A stretch of DNA of 34,396 nt from Acidobacteriota bacterium (GTDB taxonomy: Bacteria; Acidobacteriota; Terriglobia; Terriglobales; SCQP01). The notes beneath the pieces were generated by a model. The model was not told the origin of the DNA. It saw only the letters and a program-made list of their open reading frames with translations, and did no database searches. The stretch is taken from the NCBI GenBank assembly GCA_027451805.1, contig DAIDIF010000200.1, positions 1 to 34,396 on the forward strand. Direction: 5' to 3'. This document shows, in pieces, positions 9,674-24,900 of this stretch. Within the stretch, counting starts at the first letter, position 1. Each line of letters opens with the position of its first letter. The position numbers were made by a program, and so were the translations under genes.

Positions 9674-12145
9674 CTACGGCCGGACGGCGGTCTTGCGGCC
9701 CTGTTGCTCGCCGTGCAGCCAGATGTAAAGCCGGGCGTGGGGCTCGGGCGGGGGCCAGGGCAGGGCGATCGCCAGGGTCTGCGCCAGCGCCTGGCCCGGC
9801 GCGGCGCCGGCCACCCGCATCGGAATCGCCCGCACCGGCACGCCGTGGACGGCGTTCCAGCCGGTGGCGGCAATGAGCTGCAGGTTGTCGCCGGTGAGCC
9901 GGCCGGCGAACTCGCCGGGCGCGGGGCTACGGTTGGACAAGGTGAAGGATTGAATCGCCGGCAGCTCCACGATCCGCCCCAGCGTCACCGGGCGGGAGGC
10001 GCCGGTGGCGGCGTCAGCGACCTTCAGCTGCAGCTGGCAGCCCGGGGCGCCAATCTTGCCCGGCACCGCGGCCAGGTAGAACAAGCCATCGCCGCCGGCG
10101 TCGAGCTCTTCCGCGCCATCGCTCTCGCCGGGGCGCAGCTTCACCGGGCCCATGACATCCGGGAGTTGATCGTCCGGCCGGCGGCAGCGCAGTTCCATCT
10201 GCGGTTGCGCCGGCGCATGGTCGACGTGAAAGGCGAAGTTGACCGTGGCATCGGCCGGCAGTTCGCCGGCGAGGAGCTGCACCGTCCCGCCGGCCGCCAC
10301 CGACTGCGACACGCCGCGGATCGCCGGCCGCGGGCCGAGGACACTGACCGCATCCGCCACCGTCAGCGGAGCGCTTAGCCCCTTCACATACACCGCCGCC
10401 GCCAGCGTCTCACCCGGCTGCGCCTTGGGCCCCAGGGTGATGGTCAACGGACGCTCGCTCAGACCGCTGGCGGGCACGTCCGCAACGGGCGCCAGGGTAA
10501 AGCGCGCACCGGCGGCGGTGATGCGCGCGATGCGTTCGAGGTGGCGGCCGTGCAGCACCAGCGGCTGCGCGCCAGCCTGCACGTTCGCCCGCAGCGGCGC
10601 CAGCACCGGGTTGGGCGGCAGCACCGTCACTGGGATGTCGCGGGTTTCGCCGCCGGCCTGCTCCAGCCGCAGCGTGTAGGCGCCGGGCGCCAGCTTGGCG
10701 GCAGCTACGGTCGCAACCAGCCGCGGCCGGGCCGCGCCCACGGCGCCCCCCGCCAGCGTGAAGGGCAGCGGCCGGGCAGGCGCGCCGGCGCGCACGAGCT
10801 CGACCTTATCCACGAACTCGAAGTCGGCGCCTTCCAGCGTCACGGGCACGGTTCCCTGGGCGGCGATCAGTTGATCGGCCGCGCCCGGCGCCAGCCGGGC
10901 ATTGGCCAGGCGCGCCATGCGGCGCACCGCGACCTTGCCCTGGACGGTGACCGGGGTCCAGTCCCAGAGCGCCGCGAGGCGGTAGTCGCCGAGCGGCAGC
11001 GCCACGTGGCGCAGGTCGAGGGTGAGCGTGTCGCGCAGCGGGCCGGCGGCTACGGTCACCGGGACCGGCGTCGCCTTGCCGTTGGCCGCCACCAGCTTCC
11101 ACCGCCGGCTGCGGTCCAGGTCGCGCAGCTCGCCCACTGTGGCGCAGGTCACCTGCAGGCTGGCCTGGCTGTCGGCCGCCACCACGGCGGCCGTGCCCTT
11201 CGCCAGCCGCACGCTCGGCGTTTCGCCGCCGGGCAGGTCCGACATCCAGATATAGACGGTGTGCTTGCCCGGCGGCGCGGCGGTGTCGGCGCCGCACAAG
11301 TGCGATTCCTCATCTCCGGGCACGCCCGGTTGAGCAAAGGCACCCTGGAACTCGGTGCCGGGAAACATAGTCTGGTGCAGCGCCCGGAACAGGGGCAACG
11401 CGTCGTTCGCGATGCCCATCACCGGGGCGAAGTAGAGGGTCGCGAGAGCGGTTGCGGTGCTGGTCCCGCCGGCGCGCAGCGCCGCGTGCGCCGGCGGGCC
11501 CTCCTGCGCCGTCGGCGGCGCCACCGCCGCCAGCATGACCTCCGCCTCCTGATCGGGCGGCAGGGCGGGGTTGGCCTTGGGCATGGTCACGCCGAATTGG
11601 TTCGAGTACTGCTTCAGCATGGCATCCAAATCCAGCGTGCCCGGCGGCGAAGCTTCGTACCGCGCCAGTAGCGCCACCAGCGCCTCCACCCGCGAGGCCT
11701 CGGCAGCGTAGGCGGTGAAGTGCGCCACCAGCTCGGGATGCTGCGTCAGCAGCGAGCGCGTCTTGCCCGGATTCAGCCCATTGGGTCCGAACAGGAAGGC
11801 CAGCGCTCCCACCGCCGCCGGCATCCGCCACACCGCCGCCTGGCGCGCGGGCGCGGAAAACACGCTCAGTTGCGCGCTGGCGTCGTTGGCCTCCGGCACC
11901 GCGATCACCGCGATTTTCGCCGAACGCCGCCATGCCGGCGGCAGATCGCCGGGCACATAGCGCAGCGTGTCGCCGGCGTTGAGGTGGTTGATCACCGCCA
12001 GCGGCGCCTGCCCACGCCCGTTCGCCGCGCCCACGAAAAGCTGAAAGCCGGTAATCACCCGCCCGCCCGGGCAGGGCGCCGGCTGCTGCGCTCCCGCCGC
12101 GGCGTTCAGCAATAGAAACGCGATTCCTGCCTTGAAGACACGCAT
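9674..12145 (-). CDS. Large exported protein of unknown family (823 residues)
   Basis: I do not recognise the family. The N-terminus is a signal peptide (MRVFKAGIAFLLLNAAAGAQ). Residues about 20-330 are mixed in character, with a mature N-terminal cysteine (PCPGG) and a CGAD site. From about 330 to the end the sequence looks like repeated immunoglobulin-like or IPT/TIG-type beta-sandwich units: recurring phrases such as VPVTVAAGPLRDTL, VPVTLEGADFEFVDKVELV, LVLHGRHLERIARI and FAGRLTGDNLQLI resemble strand-loop-strand edges. No enzyme motif, no C-terminal sorting signal and no transmembrane helix other than the signal peptide are visible. It is probably periplasmic or surface located. GAGGGGAAG precedes ATG 12145. 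It lies on the same strand as the cytochrome operon, 98 bases downstream of the last gene, but a dyad in the gap suggests separate control. It converges with the TlpA gene, 22 bases apart. Confidence 0.8.
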   Translation of the reverse strand: MRVFKAGIAFLLLNAAAGAQQPAPCPGGRVITGFQLFVGAANGRGQAPLAVINHLNAGDTLRYVPGDLPPAWRRSAKIAVIAVPEANDASAQLSVFSAPARQAAVWRMPAAVGALAFLFGPNGLNPGKTRSLLTQHPELVAHFTAYAAEASRVEALVALLARYEASPPGTLDLDAMLKQYSNQFGVTMPKANPALPPDQEAEVMLAAVAPPTAQEGPPAHAALRAGGTSTATALATLYFAPVMGIANDALPLFRALHQTMFPGTEFQGAFAQPGVPGDEESHLCGADTAAPPGKHTVYIWMSDLPGGETPSVRLAKGTAAVVAADSQASLQVTCATVGELRDLDRSRRWKLVAANGKATPVPVTVAAGPLRDTLTLDLRHVALPLGDYRLAALWDWTPVTVQGKVAVRRMARLANARLAPGAADQLIAAQGTVPVTLEGADFEFVDKVELVRAGAPARPLPFTLAGGAVGAARPRLVATVAAAKLAPGAYTLRLEQAGGETRDIPVTVLPPNPVLAPLRANVQAGAQPLVLHGRHLERIARITAAGARFTLAPVADVPASGLSERPLTITLGPKAQPGETLAAAVYVKGLSAPLTVADAVSVLGPRPAIRGVSQSVAAGGTVQLLAGELPADATVNFAFHVDHAPAQPQMELRCRRPDDQLPDVMGPVKLRPGESDGAEELDAGGDGLFYLAAVPGKIGAPGCQLQLKVADAATGASRPVTLGRIVELPAIQSFTLSNRSPAPGEFAGRLTGDNLQLIAATGWNAVHGVPVRAIPMRVAGAAPGQALAQTLAIALPWPPPEPHARLYIWLHGEQQGRKTAVRP

Positions 12146-12243: not shown

Positions 12244-12486
12244 CTACGCCGCCGGCGGGCTCGCTTTCAGGATCGCCAGTAGAAACATCACGATGCCGGC
12301 CGCCACCAGCGGCAGGCCGATCAGCAGGAACGCCATGAACGCCAGCGGGTGTATCCAGAGGAAACTGACGAGCTGCGCCACCAGTCCCGCCGCCACCAGC
12401 GCTGCGGCGACGCGGATGCGCCGCTCGATCAGGTGATTGCGGGGCGCCGCCGGTGCGCTAGGGCTTGGGCTTCCAGAAGCTGGCAT
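12244..12486 (-). CDS. Small two-helix membrane protein, last gene of the cytochrome operon
   Basis: An 80-residue protein with a proline/serine-rich N-terminus, a basic stretch (HLIERRIR), and two hydrophobic helices at about residues 25-45 and 49-73 (VAAALVAAGLVAQLV and FMAFLLIGLPLVAAGIV). The start ATG 12486 lies inside the 3' end of the tetraheme cytochrome gene, overlapping it by 29 bases. AAGGA lies eight bases before it, so translational coupling is likely. No known family is recognised. Its place directly after the NapC-like gene suggests an accessory or assembly role at the inner membrane, which is inference from position only. Confidence 0.65.
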   Translation of the reverse strand: MPASGSPSPSAPAAPRNHLIERRIRVAAALVAAGLVAQLVSFLWIHPLAFMAFLLIGLPLVAAGIVMFLLAILKASPPAA

Positions 12487-13090
12487 ATCCCAGATCCTTG
12501 ATGTCGTGCACGGTGTCGTGGCAGCCGCTCGAGAGGCACGATTTTTGGTCGCTCAAGATCGCGGCCATCAATCCGGGCGTCTTGTTGTGGTTGGGCTCGG
12601 TCATGAACGCCCGCATACCCTCGTGGCAGTGTAGGCACTCGCGGTTGTTGTAGGGGTGGTAGAGCCGGATCGAAGCCGGCTTGGGGACGGTGCCCAGATA
12701 CTCGACGTACATGTGGTGCAGTCCCTCGAGCTTGGCGTCCATCGGGCCGAACAGGGTGTAGGTGGTGTGGCAGGTGTAGCAGGCGTGGCCGGTGGGCACC
12801 AAATGGTTCTGGTAATGCACCGCCGGGATGAAGCTGGGGTCGTCCACCATCAGGCTGCGTCCGTAGTCCTGCATCACGTGGCAGCTTAGGCAGAACCGGG
12901 TGGATTCGGCGCGGCTCATCTGCGCGGAGAAGCCGCCCCAGCTCGCCATCACCGGCAGGATGAACAACACCAGGAACGCCAGCACCCGCCCCGGCGCATT
13001 GCGCGTCAGCTCGCTTTTGATCGCCAGCAGCAGCGTCAGCACCGCCGCCAGCGCGGTAAACGCCACTCCCAGCCAGATCGGAATGTTCAT
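12458..13090 (-). CDS. NapC/NirT (CymA-like) membrane-anchored tetraheme cytochrome c
   Basis: The 210-residue protein begins with two hydrophobic segments at about residues 5-24 and 36-52. Its cytochrome domain has four haem sites: CLSCHVM (Cys67-Met73), CYTCH (104-108), CLHCH (152-156) and CLSSGCH (185-191). The first site shows the CxxCHxM signature of the NapC/NrfH/CymA quinol dehydrogenases, where the methionine can serve as haem ligand. The last is a CX4CH motif, unusual here but known in tetraheme cytochromes c3. Such proteins take electrons from menaquinol at the inner membrane and pass them to periplasmic cytochromes. With the decaheme cytochrome, beta-barrel and monoheme cytochrome encoded just upstream, a CymA-like donor role is the most likely. 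The gene starts 12 bases after the monoheme cytochrome stop, and no strong ribosome site is visible. Confidence 0.88.
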   Translation of the reverse strand: MNIPIWLGVAFTALAAVLTLLLAIKSELTRNAPGRVLAFLVLFILPVMASWGGFSAQMSRAESTRFCLSCHVMQDYGRSLMVDDPSFIPAVHYQNHLVPTGHACYTCHTTYTLFGPMDAKLEGLHHMYVEYLGTVPKPASIRLYHPYNNRECLHCHEGMRAFMTEPNHNKTPGLMAAILSDQKSCLSSGCHDTVHDIKDLGYASFWKPKP

Positions 13091-13102
13091 GGCCGCGCCC
13101 GT

Positions 13103-13483
13103 TCAGTGCTGCGTCGCCAGCGAGCGGTAATACTCCACCAGCGCCTTGATCTGCGCTGGCGTGAACTGGTCGGAGAAGCCGTTCATGTAGGCGCCTTTGC
13201 CCTTGGTCGCGATCTGGATCATCTGGGCTTCGGAGTACTTCTTCACCGTCTGGGCCACCGGCTGCACCTTGTCCTTGTGCCCTTTGACGGTGTGGCCGGA
13301 ACCGTCGCGCGCATGGCAGGTGGCGCACTTGTTGAGAAACACGTCGCGGGCGTTGAAGCCGCCCTGGGCGCGCGCCCCGGGCAGCGTCCGCCCCGCCGCC
13401 GGCGCGCCGGCCATCAGGCCCGCCGCCAGCAGCGCCGTGCCTGCCGCGCTCGCCGCCGTCACAACCCAATTCCGCAAGCTCAT
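13103..13483 (-). CDS. Monoheme c-type cytochrome (class I, periplasmic)
   Basis: A 126-residue exported protein with a long N-terminal signal region (MSLRNWVVTAASAAGTALLAAGLMAG, cleavage around residues 26-40). It has one haem-binding motif, NKCATCHARDGSG (Cys53, Cys56, His57). The C-terminal half has the class I fold markers: AYMNGF supplies a candidate distal ligand Met100, and FTPAQIKALVEYYRSL is the usual closing helix. It probably shuttles electrons in the periplasm between the NapC-like protein and the decaheme cytochrome. AGGAGG sits eight bases upstream of the ATG. The gene starts 12 bases after the beta-barrel stop and ends 12 bases before the NapC-like start, which places it firmly within the operon. 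Confidence 0.92.
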   Translation of the reverse strand: MSLRNWVVTAASAAGTALLAAGLMAGAPAAGRTLPGARAQGGFNARDVFLNKCATCHARDGSGHTVKGHKDKVQPVAQTVKKYSEAQMIQIATKGKGAYMNGFSDQFTPAQIKALVEYYRSLATQH

Positions 13484-13495
13484 CGCAATCGCCTC

Positions 13496-15544
13496 CTAAA
13501 AGCGGTGCGTCCAGCGCAGCGTGAACAGCGTTGCGCCGAAATTGTTGCCGGTTACGATCTGTTCGATGTAGTACGTCCGCGTAAGATCGGCGGACAACTT
13601 GCCGATGACCGGAAAGTCATAGAACACCGTGCCGGTGGCGTACGGCCAAGTCACCGGGCCATAGGCCGGCGGCAGGTCGTTGGTGATCGCACCGGTGCCG
13701 CTGGTGTGGTCCCAGTTGCCAGTAAACTGCAGGCCGAACTGCTCCAGCGGCTGCCACTGCACGCCCGCCTGCCAGACATGGTCAATCTCCTGGTCGCGCA
13801 GCGTGTTCGCCAGCGGCGGCGTTCCGACGTGGTAGTCGATGTTGCCCCGCGCCAGGATTCCGTCGTAGCTGAAGCCGCCGTAGAGCGAGAGTTGGTCGTT
13901 CACCCGATAGTTGAGCAGCGTGGCATTGGCCTGCATGCGGTCGTGATAGTTGGCGTCGAGCAACTGGCTGCTGGACAGGCGCAGCGTGTTGTGCAGCGTG
14001 AAGCCGCCGCCGACGTCATACTTCAGCGCCAGCATGCCCTCGGTCTGGGTGTGGGGCGAGATGGCGGTGTAGGAGGAGCCGTTGTCGAAGGTGCGCAGGT
14101 CGCCGCGCAGGCTGAGCCGCTGCCAGGGCTGGAAGTAGGCGCTGAGCTCGGGAACCACGGTGTTGGTGCGCAGCGTCAGCGCGGGATCAGCCACGCCGCC
14201 GGATACCGACTCCACATCGGTCTTCAACACCTGCACGCCGGGCGAGATCAGCAGCGAGGGCCGCGGCGTGAACACCATGCGCGCGTCGAAACTGCTGATG
14301 CCGTTCATCCACAGGATCGCGGTGTTGCCGTTGCTCGCCAGCGGCGCGCCGTCAAACAGTCCGGCGAACGCGCTCATGTTGTCTTCTGTCGAGCGGGTAT
14401 AGCGGTAGTCGGCATCCACCGACCACCAGGGGTTGATCTTCCAGGTCAGCCCTTGCGCCGCCACCTGCTGCGGCTCGCTCACGTTCGCGCGCGCGCCCTG
14501 GGAGATCGAATAGGGCGCGAACGCCGTCAGTTTGGAACTGGTGGGCGCGATGCCGTTGAAGGCTTCGTCGTAGCTGGCCGGTCCGCTAAAGCGCTCGTAC
14601 AGGTAGCTGCCGCGCAGGTCGACCGCGCCCCACACTTGGCCGGTGTAGGAGAAGTCGCTGATCGGCGTGGTCAGTTGGCGGAACTGGCTCATGGAGAAGC
14701 TCTTTAACGGCGTATCCACGGCGGTCGCGCTGCCGGTGTTGATGCTGATCTGGCCCGCGGTCAGATTGTTGAACGTCATTGCGTTGGTCAGCGTCTGATA
14801 GCCGAGCGCGTAATGGAACGTCCACCGCCGCAGCAGCGTGTAATCCATCGAGCCGGTGAAGCGGTCGGCGATGTCATTGGCTGGAGCGTACAACAAATAG
14901 GGGGTTTGGCCCGAGAAGAACCCCCAGGTGGGGTAAGCCTGCCCCATAAAGCTCGGCGTCATCGGCGTGATCGTCGTGCCGTTGTCGCTGGTGTGGTAGT
15001 ACTGCAAGCCGAAGCGCAGATTACGAGTGGCGTAGATCTGAAAGTTGAGCGTGCCGAATTTGCGCACCGTGGACCATTGGTGCGCGCTGGTCAGCCCCGG
15101 CACCCCGCCCGGCAGAATCACGTTCTGGTTGGGCGCATAGATGAAGTAGCTCTGCGACCACTGTGCGGTGAGCGCGTAGAGGCCGTCCTTGGAGACGTTG
15201 AGCTGCGCCGTCGGGAACGGGTCGCCCCCCAGGCCGCTCGCGGTAAGGGTGTAGTGGTCGGCGAACTGGTGCGGCGCGGTCGCCTCCCCGAACAGGTTGA
15301 AGTCCATCAGCCGCGGCCCCGAGCGCAGGTTCAGCAGCTCCAGGTACATCGGTTCATAGCCGCTGGTGCTGGCGTAGCGTTCGCCCAGCGTGACCGAGCC
15401 CTGGTTGGAGAAGGAGAACGGAACTTCGGCCACCGGCGCGGGCGCCGCCGGCGAAGCCAGCGCCGCCCTACTCTGAGCCGCCGCGGCCCCCCCCAGGACC
15501 GCCAGTGCCAGACCGGTCAGGACACAACGATTGCGTAAGGACAT
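13496..15544 (-). CDS. MtrB/PioB-like outer-membrane beta-barrel of a porin-cytochrome conduit
   Basis: A 682-residue protein with a signal peptide (MSLRNRCVLTGLALAVLGGAAAAQ). The rest consists of many short alternating amphipathic strands rich in Tyr, Phe, Trp, Ser and Thr (for example FGTLNFQIYATRNLRFGLQYY and WSVDADYRYTRS), and the chain ends in phenylalanine (LRWTHRF), the usual closing signal of outer-membrane barrels. Length and strand density fit MtrB/PioB, the sheath that holds the decaheme MtrA cytochrome in the outer membrane. The decaheme gene lies immediately upstream, 14 bases away. No cysteine occurs in the mature protein, so the CxxC pair of Shewanella MtrB is absent. Homology to MtrB itself is inferred from type and neighbourhood rather than from a strong motif. 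The start at 15544 is chosen for the signal peptide and a GAGAGG ribosome site; the frame stays open further upstream without meaning. Confidence 0.85.
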   Translation of the reverse strand: MSLRNRCVLTGLALAVLGGAAAAQSRAALASPAAPAPVAEVPFSFSNQGSVTLGERYASTSGYEPMYLELLNLRSGPRLMDFNLFGEATAPHQFADHYTLTASGLGGDPFPTAQLNVSKDGLYALTAQWSQSYFIYAPNQNVILPGGVPGLTSAHQWSTVRKFGTLNFQIYATRNLRFGLQYYHTSDNGTTITPMTPSFMGQAYPTWGFFSGQTPYLLYAPANDIADRFTGSMDYTLLRRWTFHYALGYQTLTNAMTFNNLTAGQISINTGSATAVDTPLKSFSMSQFRQLTTPISDFSYTGQVWGAVDLRGSYLYERFSGPASYDEAFNGIAPTSSKLTAFAPYSISQGARANVSEPQQVAAQGLTWKINPWWSVDADYRYTRSTEDNMSAFAGLFDGAPLASNGNTAILWMNGISSFDARMVFTPRPSLLISPGVQVLKTDVESVSGGVADPALTLRTNTVVPELSAYFQPWQRLSLRGDLRTFDNGSSYTAISPHTQTEGMLALKYDVGGGFTLHNTLRLSSSQLLDANYHDRMQANATLLNYRVNDQLSLYGGFSYDGILARGNIDYHVGTPPLANTLRDQEIDHVWQAGVQWQPLEQFGLQFTGNWDHTSGTGAITNDLPPAYGPVTWPYATGTVFYDFPVIGKLSADLTRTYYIEQIVTGNNFGATLFTLRWTHRF

Positions 15545-15558
15545 GGCCGCCTCTCGGG

Positions 15559-16620
15559 TTAGTGCAGCAGGGTTGGGTCGGCGTTGGAACCGTGGACCGC
15601 AATGTGGCAGCGAGTGCAGTCGCCGCCGGTCTGGAAGCCCAGCCGGCCGTGCGGCACCTGCGCCTGGGCATGAAAGCCGGTGTGGCATTCCAGGCAGATG
15701 AAGCGGGTCTGGCGCCGCACCAGCATGAAGTGGTTTACGCTGCCGTGGGGATTGTGGCAGCCGACGCAGCCCACGACGGAAACCGCGGGATGCTCGTACA
15801 CGAACGGTCCCTGCACCTCGATGTGGCATTTGGTGCAGGCGTTGAACATGGCTGCGTTCAGCTGATGGCTGGCGGTGATGGTGCCGTGCGGGGTGTGGCA
15901 GTTGGTGCACTGCATCAGCCCTTCCTGGACGCGGTGATGGAAGGGCAGTGCGAACTTGGCCTGGATGTTCTGGTGGCAGCCATAGCACAACTCCGGCTGC
16001 GGCTGCTTCAGTTGTCCGTCATGCAGCCATGCCTGCGCCACGGTCAGTTGCGGCACCTGGTAGACCGCGGTCAGCGGGCGCGGCAGCGGTTTCTCGTCGG
16101 CATTGGTAATCGCCTCGACCAGGTGAGCCGAGTGGCAACTGTTGCACGCCACCCCGTGCTGCATGTGGGCGGAGACATCGAAGAACTGCTGCTGTTTGCT
16201 GGTGACGTGGCACTGCAGGCAGCGCGCCGCCACCTGCTTGGGGTTGGCGGTGCGGAAGTCGAAGATCAGCTTCGCCGCCGCCAGCGCCTTGGCGTCGCTG
16301 CCGCGAGCGGCGTCTTCCGCTTCCACATGTGCGCGGTCGGGACCATGGCACATGGCGCAGCCGCCGACCTGCCTGTCCGCCGGAATCGGCAGCTTGGCGT
16401 GCGCCGTCTGCTGAAACTCCAGATATTCCGGCCGATGACAGTCTTCGCACACCTTGTCGCTGGGAACGTAGAGTTGGGAATTGTAGGCTGGCGTATGCCA
16501 AGCCACCGAAGGCGGGGCCGGCAGCACGGGCTGCTTCTGTCCCCATGCCGCCAGCGCCAGCGCCAGCGCCACACCCGCCACCCTCCAGCCCCGCCGACTG
16601 CCGCTCAGTGTCTTTGCCAT
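15559..16620 (-). CDS. Decaheme c-type cytochrome of MtrA/DmsE type
   Basis: The 353-residue product has a signal peptide (MAKTLSGSRRGWRVAGVALALALAAWG) and exactly ten CxxCH motifs: CEDCH, CAMCH, CLQCH, CNSCH, CYGCH, CTNCH, CTKCH, CVGCH, CLECH and CTRCH, with first cysteines at 58, 88, 134, 159, 212, 238, 262, 285, 309 and 335. Length and ten haems match MtrA, DmsE and PioA, periplasmic wires that thread into an outer-membrane barrel. Extra histidines spaced for bis-His ligation (QHGVACN, HGTITASHQ, HGSVNH) support this. The mtrB-like gene follows 14 bases downstream. Together they would form a conduit across the outer membrane for electrons leaving or entering the cell. No extracellular MtrC-like decaheme protein is seen nearby. 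The start has an AGGGA about 14 bases upstream, a weak ribosome site; a CACTA-TCCC-TAGTG dyad (16625-16638) overlaps that leader. Confidence 0.93.
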   Translation of the reverse strand: MAKTLSGSRRGWRVAGVALALALAAWGQKQPVLPAPPSVAWHTPAYNSQLYVPSDKVCEDCHRPEYLEFQQTAHAKLPIPADRQVGGCAMCHGPDRAHVEAEDAARGSDAKALAAAKLIFDFRTANPKQVAARCLQCHVTSKQQQFFDVSAHMQHGVACNSCHSAHLVEAITNADEKPLPRPLTAVYQVPQLTVAQAWLHDGQLKQPQPELCYGCHQNIQAKFALPFHHRVQEGLMQCTNCHTPHGTITASHQLNAAMFNACTKCHIEVQGPFVYEHPAVSVVGCVGCHNPHGSVNHFMLVRRQTRFICLECHTGFHAQAQVPHGRLGFQTGGDCTRCHIAVHGSNADPTLLH

Positions 16621-16624
16621 GGCA

Positions 16625-16638
16625 CACTATCCCTAGTG
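16625..16638. promoter_or_regulatory. Small dyad in the leader of the decaheme cytochrome gene
   Basis: CACTA-TCCC-TAGTG forms a five-base dyad around the weak ribosome-binding region, five bases from the start codon. It could be an operator or a hairpin that limits initiation. Nothing else in the 56-base gap to the Crp/Fnr-like gene looks like a promoter, so the two genes are probably co-transcribed. Confidence 0.3.
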
Positions 16639-16676
16639 CCGCATGTACAACGTCGCGGTCACCCTCGTCGTCCTCG

Positions 16677-17366
16677 TCAGACTGTTGTTCGATGCCAGCC
16701 CTGCGCTTCGATCTCCACCAGCCGGGCGTGATCCCGCACTACCGCGCGCCCGCCGCGTACCGCCGCGATCCCGTTGCGCCGCCACTCCGATACCAGCCGG
16801 CTTACCGTCTCTCGCGCCAGCCCGCATTGCGCCGCGATCTCTTCGTGCCGCAGCGGCGGCCGGTGTCCGTCTTCCGCGGCCCACTCCAGCACGAAATGGG
16901 CCAGCCGCTGGGGCGCGCTGTCGGCCAAGCCCAGCGCCGCCAGCCGGTCCGCCATCTCGTTCCAGCTCCGGCTGAGCGCCTCCATTAATCCCTCCGCGGG
17001 ACGGCCTCCGGCACGCAACTGGGCGCGCAACTCCTGCTGCGTCACCCGGCGTACCGCTCCGGCGGTCACCATGATCGCCGTGGCCTGATACGGAAGGCCG
17101 AGCAGCGTCTCCGCCAGCCCGAGCGCCGCCCCCTGTTCGCACCACGCCAGCGTGAACGACCGTCCCGCGGCCGACAGGCGCTGCAGCGCCGTCCAGCCGG
17201 AATCCAGAAAATACGCGTTGAGGGCGGGCTCCCCGGCGCGGAAGAGCGCATCCCCCCGCCGCAGCGACATCGCTGCACGTGGCACCAGACTGACGCCCCA
17301 ATTCGGCGCCGCGTGCTCACCAACTCCTGCCCCGTCTGATTTCAGCTTAGGCAGCGCACTGCTCAT
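16677..17366 (-). CDS. Crp/Fnr-family transcriptional regulator
   Basis: A 229-residue protein. The N-terminal part (about 25-115) is a cyclic-nucleotide-binding-like beta-roll with AMSLRRGDALFRAGEP and FLDSGWTALQRLS. A dimerisation helix follows (about 120-150), then a winged HTH with LRHEEIAAQCGLARETVSRLV (173-192); RETVSR is the recognition-helix core typical of Crp/Fnr proteins. It has only two cysteines (76 and 181) and lacks the N-terminal cysteine cluster of FNR, so an oxygen-sensing Fe-S cluster is unlikely; the ligand is unknown. The start at 17366 is chosen because GGAGG lies directly upstream; the frame opens further at 17459 without support. It precedes the decaheme cytochrome gene by 56 bases on the same strand and probably belongs to, and controls, the cytochrome operon. 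Confidence 0.9.
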   Translation of the reverse strand: MSSALPKLKSDGAGVGEHAAPNWGVSLVPRAAMSLRRGDALFRAGEPALNAYFLDSGWTALQRLSAAGRSFTLAWCEQGAALGLAETLLGLPYQATAIMVTAGAVRRVTQQELRAQLRAGGRPAEGLMEALSRSWNEMADRLAALGLADSAPQRLAHFVLEWAAEDGHRPPLRHEEIAAQCGLARETVSRLVSEWRRNGIAAVRGGRAVVRDHARLVEIEAQGWHRTTV

Positions 17367-17667
17367 GGGGTTCCTCCGTGTGCGACGCCGGCCGGCCGGC
17401 GGTGGTTTGACGTTCGGGGCAGAAACTGCCACCGAAGCGCCGGCACTGCCTTCGCGCACCCTTTCCGCTGCCGGGTGCCCGCGTTCTTGCCGGAGTGGTA
17501 AACAACATAGCTAGCGTCTGCTCCATTTCCGCCCTTCACCAATTCGGAAGCACATCGTCTGCCATGCGCATCCGCTTGTTTTTCTAGGTGCATGCCAGTG
17601 TCGTCCGAACGGAGTTGCGCCCTGCCACGCACTCGCTGCGCAAAATACCCCACAAATGCGGGTGAAA
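17367..17667. other. Spacer between the NtrC-type regulator and the Crp/Fnr gene
   Basis: These 301 bases hold no convincing gene. They contain a candidate sigma-54 promoter at 17548-17564 facing the Crp/Fnr gene. A TTGCGC-N17-GCGCAA inverted repeat at 17615-17643 is a possible activator site or end-of-gene hairpin. The leader from the predicted start near 17537 to the Crp/Fnr ATG is about 170 bases. Confidence 0.5.
17548..17564 (-). promoter_or_regulatory. Candidate sigma-54 (-24/-12) promoter for the crp-cytochrome operon
   Basis: On the minus strand the sequence reads TGGCAGACGATGTGCTT. The invariant GG and GC are exactly ten bases apart, and TGGCA plus TGCT match most of the consensus TGGCACG-N4-TTGCW; the mismatches are the C at the end of TGGCAC and the first T of TTGC. 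It faces the Crp/Fnr gene and lies about 105 bases downstream of the gene for an NtrC-type activator, which is the class that works with sigma-54. Motif seen; use in the cell inferred. Confidence 0.5.
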
Positions 17668-19128
17668 TCAGCCGTTCTGGCTGTGATCGCCGCTCTGGCC
17701 CTGGTCGCCGAGATGATACTTCTTCATCGCGTAGCGGATCGTATCCCGGCTGGTATCCAAAAGCCGTGCTGCCTGGCTCTGATTGCCGTCGCATTGCCGG
17801 AGCGCCTCCGCCACCAGTTGCTTTTCCACTCCTTCCAGCGACGTCCCGCCGCGTGGAATTCGTAGCCGCGGCAGGGATCGGCCATTGGGCTGCGCTTCCC
17901 ATGCGGCTTCGCTCTCCGGCGCCGGCTCGGTGGGAAACGCAGTTGCGGTGGAAATGTCGCTCTCCGGACCGAAAGGCAGGCTGGCGGCACGCAGCAGCGG
18001 TCCATCTTCCAGGATCATCGCCCGTTGGATGGCGTTCTTCAGTTCGCGGATATTTCCCGGCCAGGAGTACTGCGCCATCATCTCTACCGCGGCGGGCGCC
18101 AATCCCTCGATCTTCTTGCCGAAGCGGCGGTTGTACTGCTCGATAAAGAACGCTGCCAGCGCCGGCACGTCTTCCGACCGGCTGCGCAACGGCGGAATGA
18201 AAATCGGGATCACCATGAGGCGATAGTACAAATCGGCGCGGAATCGCCCGGCCTGCGCCGCTGCCTCCAGATTGCGGTTGGATGCGGCAATCATGCGGAC
18301 GTTGACTTGGATGTCACGCAGTCCGCCCAGCCGCCGCAGCGTCTGGTCCTCGAGCGTGCGCAGCAACTTGCTCTGCAAGGCCAGCGGCATCTCGCCGATC
18401 TCGTCCAGAAAAATCGTTCCCCCGTCGGCGACTTCGAACAGGCCCTTTTTCATCGCCTTGGCATCGGTGAAGGCGCCCTTTTCGTGGCCGAAGAGCTCCG
18501 CCTCGAGCAGCGTTTCCGGGATTGCCGAGCAGTTCACCGGTACGTAGGGCCGGTCGCGCCGGGCCGAGTGCTGGTGAATATACTGCGCCAGCAAGTCCTT
18601 GCCGGTGCCGCTCTCCCCCTGCAGCAGAATCGCATTGGCCTCGCTCGCCGCCGCCCGCCGCGCGTAGTCCATGACTTGGCGCATGATCGCCGAGTTGCCG
18701 ATGACGTCGCGCTCGCGCCACGTCTGCGCCTGCTGCCGCAGCGTCGCCACCTCCTGCCGCAGCCGGCCTGCCTCCAGGGCGTTGGCCATCGTCACCTGCA
18801 ACTCGTCGAATCGGACCGGTTTGACCAAGTAGTCGTACGCGCCCTGCCGCAGGGCAGTCTTCACGTCTTCCACTTTCGGGTCGGCGGTGATCAGGATGAC
18901 GGGGCCGGAGAAGAGTTCACGCCGCATCTCCGCCAGCAGGTCCACACCATTGCCGTCCGGCATGCGCACGTCCAGCAGCACCAGATCGTAGCTGTCGGCG
19001 CGCAACCGCGTCCGCGCCTCGGCGCAATCGGCCGCTTGCGCGCACTCATAGCCCCACTCCTCGCATCGCCGGCTCACCGACCAGCGCAGCAGGCTCTCAT
19101 CGTCAATGATCAGTATCTTAGGCTTCAT
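17668..19128 (-). CDS. NtrC-type sigma-54-dependent response regulator
   Basis: A 486-residue protein with three modules. The receiver domain (1-115) has the acidic pair Asp9-Asp10, phosphoacceptor Asp53 in LLDVRMPDGNG and Lys103 in LVKP. The AAA+ domain (about 140-370) has Walker A GESGTGKD (171-178), Walker B GGTIFLDEIGEM (from 237), the sigma-54-contacting loop as GAFTDA (218-223, where GAFTGA is usual), and YSWPGNIRELKN. The C-terminal Fis-type HTH (about 450-475) reads SQAARLLDTSRDTIRYAMKK. It would turn on sigma-54 promoters after phosphorylation by the histidine kinase encoded just upstream; the two genes overlap by 11 bases. The nearest candidate target is the promoter in front of the Crp/Fnr gene, making it a likely master switch of the cytochrome operon. 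Confidence 0.94.
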   Translation of the reverse strand: MKPKILIIDDESLLRWSVSRRCEEWGYECAQAADCAEARTRLRADSYDLVLLDVRMPDGNGVDLLAEMRRELFSGPVILITADPKVEDVKTALRQGAYDYLVKPVRFDELQVTMANALEAGRLRQEVATLRQQAQTWRERDVIGNSAIMRQVMDYARRAAASEANAILLQGESGTGKDLLAQYIHQHSARRDRPYVPVNCSAIPETLLEAELFGHEKGAFTDAKAMKKGLFEVADGGTIFLDEIGEMPLALQSKLLRTLEDQTLRRLGGLRDIQVNVRMIAASNRNLEAAAQAGRFRADLYYRLMVIPIFIPPLRSRSEDVPALAAFFIEQYNRRFGKKIEGLAPAAVEMMAQYSWPGNIRELKNAIQRAMILEDGPLLRAASLPFGPESDISTATAFPTEPAPESEAAWEAQPNGRSLPRLRIPRGGTSLEGVEKQLVAEALRQCDGNQSQAARLLDTSRDTIRYAMKKYHLGDQGQSGDHSQNG

Positions 19129-21040
19129 GGACGGCGTTGGCCGCTCCTTCCGTCTTTTGTGCCGGTCCCTGAATCGGCAACCGCACGGTGAAGCACGTGC
19201 CCACGTCCGCTTGCGTGCTCACCTCGATGCTCCCGCCGTGCAGTTGCGCAATCCGCAGGGACTGCGGCAGGCCCAGGCCGTTGCCTTTGCCGCCTTTGGT
19301 GGTGTAAAACGGCCGGAAGATTTTCGACAGCGCCGCCGCCGGAATCCCCGGCCCGTTGTCGCGCACCCGAATCTCGGCCCGGCCGAACTCGTCGAGCGCT
19401 GTGTGGATGCGCACCACGCCGCCCTCGGGCGCCGCATCCGCCCCGTTGAGCGCCAGATTCAGCACCATGCGTTGCACCTGATCCTCGTCATGCGTAATCG
19501 GCGGCAGCTCCCCCGCCTCAAAGATCACCTGGACTCGGCGCGGCGCCGCCGTGCGCGCCGCCAGGTGCGACGCCATCCGCACCGTGGCGTTCAGATCGGT
19601 CGCGCGGAAATCGGGGGCCCGCGGGCGCGCATAGTGCAGCAGGTCTTCCACAATCCCTCCGATTCGGCTGATCTGGCGCAGCACTTCCGCCATGATCTCC
19701 TTGTGTTCGCCGCTGCTCTGGTCCCGCAGCACCTCGAGCGCTCCCGCCATGCCCGCGAGCGGGTTCTTGATCTCATGCGCCAGCCCCGCCGCCACTTCCC
19801 CGAGCGTGGCCAAGTGCTGCGCCTGCTCCATTTGCAGCGTATGTTGGCGGGCCGCCTCCACCTCCTCGCGCTTGCGGGCGGTGAGATCGCGCATGACCGC
19901 GGTGACCAGCAGGCCCGATTCCAGCCGCAGCGGGCTGAGGCTGATCTCCACCGGGAACTCACTGCCGTTCTTGCGCTGCGCATACAGCTCCAGCCCCGTG
20001 CCCATGGGCCGTGCCTTCGGGTTGTGGCTGTAGGCGGTACGCTGCGCGGCGTGTGCCTCCCGCAGCCGCGGCGCCACTAGCATCTCCACCGGTTGTCCCG
20101 CCAATTCGTCACGGGTGTAGCCCAGCAACTCGGTCACCATTCGATTGCTAATCACGATCCGGCCGCCTTCGTCCACGATGACCAGCGCCTCGGGCGCCGC
20201 TTCCACCAAGCTGCGGAACTTCAATTCGCTCTGCCGCAGCGCCAACTCCACCTGCAACCGCTCCCGCATCAGGCCGTACTGATGGCCCAACTCCGCCAGC
20301 AACTTCTGCCAGAGTTCGCTGGCCGATTCCTCCGGCCCGCCGTGCCAGGCCAGAATGCGGGACACGCGCCCGCGCGCCGCCACCGGCAGCGTCAGCCCGA
20401 AGCCGGCGTCCGCTTCCGCGCCGGCTTGCACCTCGCCGGTTTCCCACGCCCGGCCCAGCAGCCCTTCGCCCGGACGCAAGTAGCGCCGCTGGACCGCGGA
20501 TGTGCCCGGCTGCCAGGCGGTGCGGTAAGCGCTTTGGCCGCCTTCCACGTCCCACACCTCACCCCAAGCCCAGCCGCCGACTTCGCCGACCAGACGAAGC
20601 AACGCCGTCTCGGCGACGCGCCAGTCCTCGGTCGTCGCAAACAGGTCGCTGGCCGCCAGCCGCAGCTTATGCCGCACCTCCGCCGCTGCACGTTGTTGCA
20701 GGTCGGCATTCACTTCCAGGATTCCCGCCGGCTGCCCGCGCTCGTCGCGGAACAGCGCCCACTGGCTGTCCGCCACGAACCACGTCCCGTCCCGCCGGCA
20801 CTGCCGCAACCTTCCCCGCCATTCCCCCTGCTCCAGCACCTGGCGCTCAATCTCCGCACGCGGAGCGGGGAACTCGGTCTGCAGCAGCTCATGGCTGAAC
20901 TGCCCCAACGCCTCCTCGGCGCTCCAGCCGTAGGTGCGCTCCGCGCCCACGCTCCAATAGGAAATTCGACCGCCCGGCAAATGGAGAAAGACAGCATCCC
21001 CGGTCCGGCTCTCGGGCACGCTCTGGGCTTGGATGGCCAT
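19118..21040 (-). CDS. Cytosolic PAS-domain sensor histidine kinase
   Basis: About 640 residues without a transmembrane helix or signal peptide, so a soluble sensor. Residues 1-115 form a PAS domain (WSVGAERTYGWSAEEALGQ, ending FRDERGQPAGILEV). Residues about 130-265 look GAF-like (LRPGEGLLGRAWETGEVQ, GFGLTLPVAARG). Residues about 270-390 form a second PAS domain (FRSLVEAAPEALVIVDEGG, RKNGSEFPVEISLSPL). The HisKA box has LAHEIKNPLAGMAGALE with phosphoacceptor His422. The ATPase part has the N box NLALNGADAAPEG, D box RDNGPGIP and G box GKGNGLGLPQS. This is an NtrB-like kinase with a likely redox, ligand or gas signal. The start is taken as ATG 21040; TTG 21043 is the alternative. It overlaps the NtrC-type regulator by 11 bases and starts 31 bases after the stress-protein gene, suggesting one operon. 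Confidence 0.93.
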   Translation of the reverse strand: MAIQAQSVPESRTGDAVFLHLPGGRISYWSVGAERTYGWSAEEALGQFSHELLQTEFPAPRAEIERQVLEQGEWRGRLRQCRRDGTWFVADSQWALFRDERGQPAGILEVNADLQQRAAAEVRHKLRLAASDLFATTEDWRVAETALLRLVGEVGGWAWGEVWDVEGGQSAYRTAWQPGTSAVQRRYLRPGEGLLGRAWETGEVQAGAEADAGFGLTLPVAARGRVSRILAWHGGPEESASELWQKLLAELGHQYGLMRERLQVELALRQSELKFRSLVEAAPEALVIVDEGGRIVISNRMVTELLGYTRDELAGQPVEMLVAPRLREAHAAQRTAYSHNPKARPMGTGLELYAQRKNGSEFPVEISLSPLRLESGLLVTAVMRDLTARKREEVEAARQHTLQMEQAQHLATLGEVAAGLAHEIKNPLAGMAGALEVLRDQSSGEHKEIMAEVLRQISRIGGIVEDLLHYARPRAPDFRATDLNATVRMASHLAARTAAPRRVQVIFEAGELPPITHDEDQVQRMVLNLALNGADAAPEGGVVRIHTALDEFGRAEIRVRDNGPGIPAAALSKIFRPFYTTKGGKGNGLGLPQSLRIAQLHGGSIEVSTQADVGTCFTVRLPIQGPAQKTEGAANAVHEA

Positions 21041-21071
21041 CAACCTTTAGTATGGTCCAAGCTGCCATGGG

Positions 21072-22245: not shown

Positions 22246-24900
22246 ATGCAGCCTCTCTTCTACGCCGCGCTGGCGTTTGCGGGCGGCATCGCCGCCGCTG
22301 CCGCCGGACCGGCCTGGCTGGCGCCCTTCGCCGTTCTCTGGCTCGCCGTCGTCTCCGCTCTCGCCGCCGTCCTGCTTCGCCGCCGCGCCGCGGCGGCCGT
22401 GCTTGCCTTGTTGGTGTGCGCGGCCCTGGGCGGCTGGCGCGCCCGCCAGGTGTTGGCGGCGCCCGCGGCGGCGACCTCGCTCGAGCGCGCTGCCCGGCGC
22501 CTGCAAACCACGCCGCGCAGCCGCATCTTCCTTACCGGCTACTTGCGTGACACGCCCGAGCTGCTCTGGGATCGCGGGCAGCCCTCCGCCATCCGTCTCG
22601 ACCTTGCCGCGGTCACGCTTGCACCGTACAAGGCCTCGGCCAGAGTGGCACCCGTCTCCGGCGGCGTGCGCCTGTATGCCTACCCTCCGGTCCATCCGCC
22701 CCGCGGCGCGCGGTGGCAAGCCGCGCTGTTGCGGCTCCGGGCCGGCGACGGTCTCGGCGCCTCCGTGCATCTGCGACCGCTGCCCCGCTACCGCGATCCC
22801 GGCGTCGCCGACTTCGCCGCCGCGGCGCGCCGCCAGGGCATCGCACTCACCGCCACGCTGCCGCTGGAGGGCTGGCAGCCATGGCCGGCGGTGGGCGGCG
22901 GCGTGGCCACGCGTCTGCGCGCCGCGATCTGGCGCGGGCTCAGCCGCCGCCTCGACCAGCTCGTGCCGCCCCGCGCCGCGCCCCGCGCCAACGCCCTGCT
23001 GCGCGGCATGCTGCTGGGCGACGTCGCCCGCCTGGACGACGCCACCCGCACGGACTTCCAGATTGACGGCGTCTACCACCTGCTGGTGGTCGCCGGCCTG
23101 CACATCGGCATCCTGGCCGCGCTGCTGTACTGGCTCTGCCGCCGCCTGCGCCTTCCGCCGCTGGCCGCTTCCGCCGTCACGCTGCTGCTGCTCGCCGCCT
23201 ACGCCTGGGACATCGCCGGCCGCACGCCCACCCTCCGCGCCCTGCTCATGCTGGCGCTCTACTTCGGCGCCCGCGTCTGGTATCGCGAGCGCCAGGCGCT
23301 CAATGCCGTCGGCGGCGCCGGATTGATTCTGCTCGTCTGGCATCCGCTCGATTTGTTCGCGCCCGGCTTCGAGCTGTCGCTGGGCGCCGCCACGCTGCTT
23401 GCCGGCATCGCGCTGCCGCTGCTGCTCAAGACCTCGCATCCCCTGCGCCGGGCCATCCGCCAACTCGCCAACCCCGGCTATGACGAGGCCTTTCCGCCGC
23501 GGCTGGCGCAGTGGCGCCTCGATCTGCGCTCCGCCGGCTGGCCTCGCCTCCTTCCGGTTCTGCTCCGCATCCTGCTGGCGGTCTATGACGTGATCGTGAT
23601 CTCCCTTGTGCTCCAGCTGGGCTTCGCCGCCTTCAACGTGGTGTATTTCCACCGCGCCAGCCCCTGGTCGGTGGTCGCCAACGCGCTGCTCGTGCCCGCC
23701 GCCGGCGTCCTGATTCCGCTGGCCTGGCTGGCGCTGGCCGCATCGTCCATCGGCGCATTCACCGTGGCCGCCGGCGCGTTGCTCGCCGCCGCGGCGCGCG
23801 GCCTGCTCGCGGTGGCCGCCGCGCTGGCGCGCTGGCCACTGGCCAACTGGCGCGCGCCCTCGCCGCCGGGCTGGTTCCTGGTTGTCTTCGCCGCCGCCGT
23901 TGCCGCCTGGCTCGTGGCCGCCGGCCGCTGGGCAGGCGCGCGCCCCAGCCCGCCCAAGCGGGTGCCGGCTCCGGGCCCGGAGCCGCCCCAGCCCCCCATG
24001 CGCGGCTGGCAGCCGTTCGCCGCGATCACCGGCATCATGGCCATCTGCGCCCTGGTGGTGTCGCTGGCGCCCTTCCCGCCGCGCTTGCCGCCCGGCCTGG
24101 CGGCGACCATCCTCGATGTCGGCCAGGGCGACTCCATCCTGGTCTCCTTTCCTGACGGGCGCACGATGCTGGTGGATGCCGGCCCGCGCAGCGCGCACTG
24201 GGACAGCGGGGAGGAGATCGTGGCGCCATTCCTCTGGTCGCTGGGCCTGCACCGGCTCGACGCGGTGCTGCTCACCCACGCGCACAACGACCACCTGGGC
24301 GGGATGGCGACGGTGGTGCGCGACTTTCATCCCGGCGAAATCTGGCTCAGCCGCTCGCTGCCGTCCCGCGACCCCGCTCTGCGCTCCTTCCTGCGCCTCG
24401 TGCGGAAGCCGCGCGCCGGCCGTCCAGTGAAGATCCGGCGCCTGGCCGCCGGGGATGCCTTCCTCGCCGGCGCCAGCCGCCTCGCCGTTCTGCTGCCGCC
24501 GCCCAACGCCTTGGCCGGGCCCAAGCCCAGCAACGACGACTCGCTGATGCTGCGCGTGAGTTGGGGCGGCGCGGCCATGCTGCTGGCCGGCGATGCCCAG
24601 GCCGCCGGCGAGAGCTGGCTGCTGCGCCAGCACGAGCCGCTCGCGAGCGCGGTCCTGAAGGTCGGCCATCACGGCAGCAACAGCTCTTCCAGCGCCGCCT
24701 TCCTGGCGGCGGTCCGTCCTCAGGTTGCCGTGATCTCGGCGGGCAGGGCCAACCTCTATGGCCTGCCGTCCCCGGCGGTGCTGGCGCGGCTGCGGCAGGC
24801 CGGTGCGCGCGTCTTCCGCACCGACCGCAGCGGCGCCATCCAGTGCCGCCTGCAGGGCGGCTGGCTGCGCGTCCTGCTCTTCCGCCGGCCGCCGGCTTAG
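22246..24900 (+). CDS. comEC: ComEC/Rec2-family DNA internalisation protein
   Basis: An 884-residue membrane protein with the complete ComEC order. Two or three N-terminal helices (1-70) lead to a soluble OB-like region (about 75-215, with FLTGYLRDTPELL). The competence domain (about 235-560) has many helices and the signature blocks GMLLGDVARLDD, VYHLLVVAGLHIGIL and RTPTLRALLM. The C-terminal metallo-beta-lactamase-like domain begins at LDVGQGDSILV (about 624) and has the metal motif THAHNDHLGG (about 677-686) and VGHHGSNSSSS (about 805). ComEC forms the inner-membrane channel for transforming DNA, and the lactamase-like domain is thought to degrade the non-transported strand. The metal motif looks intact. 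A proline-rich linker (near 575) lies before the last soluble domain. It overlaps the convergent HD-GYP gene by four bases. No other competence gene is in the window. Confidence 0.95.
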   Translation: MQPLFYAALAFAGGIAAAAAGPAWLAPFAVLWLAVVSALAAVLLRRRAAAAVLALLVCAALGGWRARQVLAAPAAATSLERAARRLQTTPRSRIFLTGYLRDTPELLWDRGQPSAIRLDLAAVTLAPYKASARVAPVSGGVRLYAYPPVHPPRGARWQAALLRLRAGDGLGASVHLRPLPRYRDPGVADFAAAARRQGIALTATLPLEGWQPWPAVGGGVATRLRAAIWRGLSRRLDQLVPPRAAPRANALLRGMLLGDVARLDDATRTDFQIDGVYHLLVVAGLHIGILAALLYWLCRRLRLPPLAASAVTLLLLAAYAWDIAGRTPTLRALLMLALYFGARVWYRERQALNAVGGAGLILLVWHPLDLFAPGFELSLGAATLLAGIALPLLLKTSHPLRRAIRQLANPGYDEAFPPRLAQWRLDLRSAGWPRLLPVLLRILLAVYDVIVISLVLQLGFAAFNVVYFHRASPWSVVANALLVPAAGVLIPLAWLALAASSIGAFTVAAGALLAAAARGLLAVAAALARWPLANWRAPSPPGWFLVVFAAAVAAWLVAAGRWAGARPSPPKRVPAPGPEPPQPPMRGWQPFAAITGIMAICALVVSLAPFPPRLPPGLAATILDVGQGDSILVSFPDGRTMLVDAGPRSAHWDSGEEIVAPFLWSLGLHRLDAVLLTHAHNDHLGGMATVVRDFHPGEIWLSRSLPSRDPALRSFLRLVRKPRAGRPVKIRRLAAGDAFLAGASRLAVLLPPPNALAGPKPSNDDSLMLRVSWGGAAMLLAGDAQAAGESWLLRQHEPLASAVLKVGHHGSNSSSSAAFLAAVRPQVAVISAGRANLYGLPSPAVLARLRQAGARVFRTDRSGAIQCRLQGGWLRVLLFRRPPA

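Follow-up and report, generated by a model that had tools for sequence, protein, structure and literature searches.

The closest described counterpart of the locus reported here is a gene cluster of the iron bacterium Sideroxydans lithotrophicus ES-1, arranged mtoD-mtoA-mtoB-imoA(cymA)-pmcA (PMC4412085, PMC13390432). Homologues of CymA have been found only in Proteobacteria, and the same study describes another cytochrome, ImcH, as a protein of about 500 amino acids with a hydrophobic N-terminal part, one CX3CH and five to nine CXXCH motifs; all reports of it come from Fe(III) reducers, and its gene has no adjoining mtrAB or mtoAB (PMC6295460). From the Acidobacteria, MtrA/DmsE-type genes of Solibacter and Terriglobus have been recovered from Arctic peat (PMC3669403), and PioA/MtoA homologues are known in Acidobacteriia (PMC10654088). 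Porin-cytochrome complexes have been described from Holophaga (PMC7399161), and MtrCAB from Acidobacteriia including Bryobacterales, there with no quinone oxidoreductase close by (PMC8805035). Our literature search, outside which lay most subscription journals, found no description of the operon analyzed below, of a branch of barrels invisible to Pfam or of the exchange of quinone modules, and no experiment on any member of that branch.

Acidobacteria rank with the most common bacteria of soils, and little is known of how they contribute to the redox cycling of iron and humic matter. The operon very probably encodes an electron conduit across the outer membrane, on the plan of MtrAB/MtoAB, with which the bacterium is probably able to send electrons to extracellular minerals or to take them up from there. 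Machines of this type are already known, but the barrel of this one comes from a branch that escapes the standard family model.

The operon and its conservation

In the window (the whole stretch of DNA that was analyzed, 34,396 nucleotides), six intact minus-strand open reading frames run head to tail, four of the junctions being gaps (56, 14, 12 and 12 bases) and the last an overlap of 29 bases, exactly as a preliminary description of this DNA had given them:

16677-17366, minus strand: Crp/Fnr-family regulator of 229 amino acids, with a cNMP-binding fold (PF00027, 42.8 bits) and a Crp HTH (PF13545, 58.5 bits)
15559-16620, minus strand: decaheme cytochrome of the MtrA/DmsE family, predicted periplasmic, 353 amino acids, ten CXXCH (TIGR03508; 6r2q chain A)
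13496-15544, minus strand: outer-membrane barrel, MtrB-like by predicted structure, 682 amino acids, signal peptide, 26 predicted strands, no PF11854 match
13103-13483, minus strand: class I monoheme cytochrome c, predicted periplasmic, 126 amino acids (PF13442, 39.8 bits; PF00034, 32.3 bits)
12458-13090, minus strand: NapC/NrfH-type tetraheme quinol dehydrogenase, 210 amino acids (PF03264, 45.7 bits against a cut-off of 24.1)
12244-12486, minus strand: small hydrophobic protein of 80 amino acids, with at least one clear transmembrane segment and no Pfam family; probable NapC partner

The order decaheme-barrel-monoheme-NapC-small protein is kept in five other genomes (G001, the metagenome-assembled JASHOS01 of the Terriglobia and JAKAWG01 of the Acidobacteria, G318, and G008, where it is spread over two contigs), with NapC identities of 48-86%. 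The nearest relative is G001, whose barrel is 80% identical to that of the window; a sixth genome, G270, has the same five-gene order with a more distant barrel, and contig JASHTR01 carries the decaheme, barrel and monoheme genes and then ends. Because the five-gene order recurs in other genomes, the operon is not a chance arrangement. Its gene content, order and conservation can be read directly, as can the families to which the decaheme and NapC proteins belong.

Two neighbors lie outside the operon. Positions 9674-12145 (minus strand), 98 bases 3′ of it, encode an 823-amino-acid secreted protein without a Pfam family, which occupies the same place in G001 (76% identity) and was not seen at the other operon loci. 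At 22246-24900 (plus strand) lies a ComEC-type competence gene (PF03772 plus metallo-beta-lactamase), and an 819-amino-acid open frame antisense to it, belonging to no family, is probably spurious.

A decaheme cytochrome and a predicted remote MtrB-type barrel

The first count of ten CXXCH motifs in the decaheme protein is exact, and the protein has no further cysteine. The proposed check of its family also succeeded, with TIGR03508 (DmsE family) matching at 202.2 bits against a cut-off of 192.2. In a search of PDB sequences its closest solved chain was 6r2q_A (E 1e-22), which we take to be MtrA, the entry being entitled 'Structure of the Mtr complex', although the listed molecule name disagrees.

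The corresponding check of the barrel failed: PF11854 (MtrB/PioB) gave no match above its curated cut-off, so the fold was tested instead. Comparison at the level of fold was needed because a first profile of the barrel family found nothing among PDB sequences. An AlphaFold2 model built from 40 homologues (pLDDT 84.1, pTM 0.77) and an earlier one from 15 (pLDDT 69) each had 26 long strands, the number that MtrB reportedly has. Among 350,542 PDB chains searched with Foldseek, MtrB (6r2q_B) ranked first for both models. The better model aligned to it with TM-scores of 0.63/0.66, of which 0.63 speaks for the fold class and not for a bound decaheme, and the best other chain among the matches listed scored 0.48. 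By prediction, then, the barrel has an MtrB-type fold. Profile comparison (hhalign) pointed the same way, with the family aligning to the Acidobacterial PF11854 members over 577 columns (99.7% probability, E 3.6e-26), as against 1.4% probability for a control comparison with Cyc2-like fused barrels from the same set of genomes. In addition, 4 of 40 members of the family reached PF11854 unaided (best 1.2e-8), and one locus, that of G073, was found by both PF11854 and the close-family profile. Because MtrB is the top fold match, the profiles match and these four members reach the Pfam model, we assign the window's predicted barrel to the MtrB type, as a remote member beyond that model's reach. 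The porin-cytochrome reading of the preliminary description is thus upheld through the predicted fold and not through the Pfam test proposed for it.

Two other accounts of this gene pair would dispense with a conduit. The barrel might be an unrelated porin or TonB-type receptor that adjoins the decaheme gene by accident, for which one could cite its lack of any Pfam family above cut-off and the TonB-dependent receptors that come after MtrB in the fold search. That MtrB came first with both alignments and by a clear TM margin, that the profile match is strong to MtrB-family barrels and absent to Cyc2 barrels, and that the barrel adjoins a decaheme gene across the phylum make this account very improbable. 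The name of the decaheme's matching model, DmsE family, could likewise suggest that the pair belongs, as DmsE/DmsF, to an extracellular reductase of the DMSO type. TIGR03508, however, is a subfamily model of decahemes and no marker of DMSO respiration, and a molybdopterin reductase is absent among the neighboring genes scanned; we rejected this reading on gene context and give it hardly any credence. The pair is better read as the core of an electron conduit.

Partners of the core and regulation

In the monoheme cytochrome, C53, C56, H57 and M100 are invariant in 12 relatives, and the invariant Met100 suggests His/Met ligation of the heme; its PDB sequence matches included no MtoD entry. The NapC/CymA-like protein had been called tetraheme, and four heme sites do stand, refined to three CXXCH and one CX4CH (CLSSGCH, residues 185-191). 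We count four hemes because the CX4CH site does not vary among the nearest relatives, and more distant ones have an ordinary CXXCH at the aligned position, which marks the site, on alignment, as a clade-specific form of the fourth site. The heme-1 motif of the protein is CxxCHxM. Hydropathy indicates two hydrophobic N-terminal segments (5-23 and 36-54) as against the single anchor of NapC/NirT/NrfH, and a comparison with PDB sequences gave no match. A homologue of the small protein lies directly 3′ of NapC at all 15 of the NapC loci examined, and it is because of this constant placement that we regard the small protein as probably a NapC subunit or assembly partner. It would be a new component, open to test.

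These parts would form a chain that leads from the quinone pool through NapC and the small protein to the monoheme, then to the decaheme in its barrel and so to the outside, and that could run in either direction. The membrane-anchored NapC and its small membrane partner would exchange electrons with the quinone pool, the monoheme cytochrome c would ferry them through the periplasm, and the decaheme, inside the 26-stranded barrel, would carry them across the outer membrane; complex formation, the shuttle role and the quinone link are what we infer from this gene set. The preliminary description had called the conduit operon complete, which fits the core genes and is too strong for the whole: a TIGR03507 search of the 305-contig draft genome turned up no surface cytochrome of the MtrC/OmcA type (the cytochrome inventory comes from the CXXCH matches listed and from family searches). 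With no MtrC found, the outer contact may be the decaheme itself or soluble iron or humics.

The claim that the operon has its own Crp/Fnr regulator needs qualifying: among the relatives compared, a Crp gene adjoins the operon only in the window and in its closest relative, G001. The protein has two cysteines in total and no N-terminal Fnr-type [4Fe-4S] cysteine cluster. Upstream lie further candidates:

17549-17564, minus strand: sigma-54-like promoter element TGGCAGACGATGTGCT, 198 bases 5′ of the Crp start
17668-19128, minus strand: NtrC-family sigma-54-dependent response regulator (PF00158, 226.6 bits; PF00072; PF02954)
19118-21043, minus strand: PAS histidine kinase (PF00512, PF02518, PF00989/PF13426), overlapping the response regulator gene

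A universal stress protein gene is also found upstream of the operon, on the same strand as the kinase and NtrC genes. In G001 the NtrC-family regulator occupies the same position (91% identity), and a 24-base block containing TGGCAG-N5-GTGCT is identical at 21 of 24 positions, as against 57% for the whole 301-base intergenic stretch between NtrC and crp. Because the number of sigma-54-like sites in the window is at chance level, the case for sigma-54 is made by this one two-species footprint together with the adjoining sigma-54 activator; no such sites were found 5′ of the decaheme gene in relatives without Crp. The promoter region (17366-17668) contains no Fnr box (TTGAT-N4-ATCAA), matches to which, across the window, exceed the shuffled mean, and no sigma-70 promoters were found. 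Our hypothesis is that the kinase/NtrC pair controls the operon, with the NtrC regulator the likely activator, which would drive the operon through the sigma-54 promoter.

Quinone modules across the phylum and the direction of flow

We drew 396 genomes from the Acidobacteriota and searched them with both barrel profiles. The close-family profile matched in 86 genomes (mostly confined to the region around residues 45-205) and PF11854 in 90, the union being 158 and the overlap 18, where a genome in common does not imply a common locus. Sixty-eight of the 86 genomes with a close-family barrel had no PF11854 match anywhere. If these barrels are what they appear to be, Pfam MtrB-based surveys miss conduits in 68 of the 396 sampled genomes (17%), and the number of genomes with a candidate conduit would rise from 90 to 158.

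Among 82 barrel loci read with their flanks, 75 had a decaheme gene on the same strand no more than 200 bases away; the window counts as one of the misses owing to the upstream barrel start chosen by the ORF caller (the true gap is 14 bases), and some of the others are cut by contig ends. What accompanies this core varies. Within 6 kb of the barrel, an arbitrary limit applied to loci that are not independent, we found NapC at 12 loci, cytochrome b with Rieske protein at 11, an ImcH-like cytochrome at 18, the latter two modules together at 2, and none of these modules at 39. The gap from the monoheme gene to the module, on the same strand, is mostly 1-250 bases. The Rieske module comprises a PF00355 protein and a cytochrome b (PF00033/PF00032) to which a cytochrome c domain is fused. 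Seven loci (L136, L139, L141, L144, L147, L170 and L175) have Rieske-cytochrome b modules followed by a nine-heme cytochrome, with a cytochrome b of 354-364 amino acids, shorter than the fused form. The ImcH-like proteins (NAPC5), two of which were available in full (479 and 475 amino acids), have five CXXCH and one CX3CH and match PF03264; compared by description only, they fit ImcH, hydrophobic N-terminal part included (PMC6295460).

From this survey it seems reasonably probable that a large branch of MtrAB-like conduits, most of it uncatalogued, exists in the Acidobacteriota. In this branch a single decaheme-barrel(-monoheme) core would be joined to interchangeable quinone modules (NapC with the small protein, Rieske/cytochrome b, or ImcH-like) that may tune the wire to different quinone potentials or directions. 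Such swapping around one core would amount to a natural experiment on what determines in which direction, and at what potential, extracellular electron transfer runs.

The direction of flow at the window locus is not readable from its genes. We weakly favor outward flow, at roughly an even chance, because at 20 loci relatives have an ImcH-like module close to this core, and reports of ImcH come from Fe(III) reducers only. The conduit would then reduce Fe(III), humic substances or comparable acceptors, or rid the cell of surplus electrons. In the opposite reading, which differs in direction only, the same machine would oxidize extracellular Fe(II) or take up electrons that minerals or partner cells supply, a role proposed for MtoAB and PioAB. 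The monoheme cytochrome would then hand the electrons on to quinone, an oxidase or a bc-type complex. For this reading, the gene content is that of the mto cluster, which lacks MtrC (PMC4412085, PMC13390432); several relatives have the core followed by Rieske protein and cytochrome b in place of NapC; and three proteins of the genome carry the full Cyc2 motif, published as AXPXFARQT-CXXCH-PXL (PMC8406198), in the form AXPXFAR[Q/K][T/Y]-CXXCH-PXL. These three are, by their sequences, candidate Fe(II) oxidases and argue for Fe(II) oxidation no less than for reduction; they have homologues in 5 of 7 relatives searched, one of them (in G008) on the same 7-kb contig as conduit genes. Cyc2-like genes, however, are common also in bacteria not known as iron oxidizers. 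Against the inward reading stand, further, the ImcH-like partner in relatives, which suggests outward flow (PMC6295460), and MtoA and PioA, which form no function-specific clade, so that phylogeny cannot settle the direction (PMC8805035). Autotrophy, which we considered as support for Fe(II) oxidation, was rejected: RuBisCO is represented only by a 68-residue fragment at a contig edge and is absent from nine relatives, which leaves no case for it. We hold inward flow to be possible, at somewhat less than an even chance; the direction may also be reversible.

Other redox genes were seen in these genomes. The Cyc2-like fused monoheme-porin proteins lie at L038:3479-4834 (G000:C23), L109:5541-6947 (C174) and L110:2515-3873 (C145). 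About 2 kb from a Cyc2-like gene, on G000:C23, a pentaheme protein with mono- and diheme proteins (L038:1106-1678 and L037) resembles an alternative complex III cluster, and the G008 contig with conduit genes and a Cyc2 homologue (L024, G008:C33, 7 kb) also carries a pentaheme cytochrome, 35% identical to that on G000:C23. A 552-amino-acid protein with nine CXXCH (L036, G000:C129 6354-8012) has partial likeness to decaheme models and an N-terminal monoheme-like domain. The RuBisCO-family fragment (G000:C295:3-206) is C-terminal and looks by eye nearer to a RuBisCO-like protein than to form I.

Comparison with described systems

The differences from Shewanella mtrCAB and Rhodopseudomonas pioABC noted in the preliminary description are real, but it overlooked the closest gene set, that of Sideroxydans. 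The decaheme is nearest to chain A and the barrel fold to chain B of Shewanella MtrCAB (PDB 6R2Q), yet the window has no MtrC, its barrel is only ~12% identical in structural alignment, and NapC lies inside the operon, whereas CymA lies outside the mtrCAB cluster. PioABC of Rhodopseudomonas palustris likewise combines a decaheme with a barrel and no MtrC, but the place of PioC, a HiPIP, is taken in the window by monoheme c and NapC. The Acidobacteriia MtrCAB 'Group 5' shares the phylum and an MtrAB-type core; it has MtrC and a periplasmic tetraheme with no inner-membrane quinone oxidoreductase nearby, whereas the window has NapC and no MtrC (PMC8805035). Proteins like Geobacter ImcH (PMC6295460) stand near the core in relatives and are absent at the window locus. 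With the Sideroxydans mto cluster the window shares a clustered decaheme, barrel, monoheme and tetraheme NapC-type quinone oxidoreductase and the lack of MtrC. It differs in its order, A-B-monoheme-NapC-small protein, in a monoheme with a conserved Met where MtoD is bis-His, in a NapC whose fourth heme site is CX4CH and which has a small membrane protein as its likely partner, and in a barrel that escapes PF11854.
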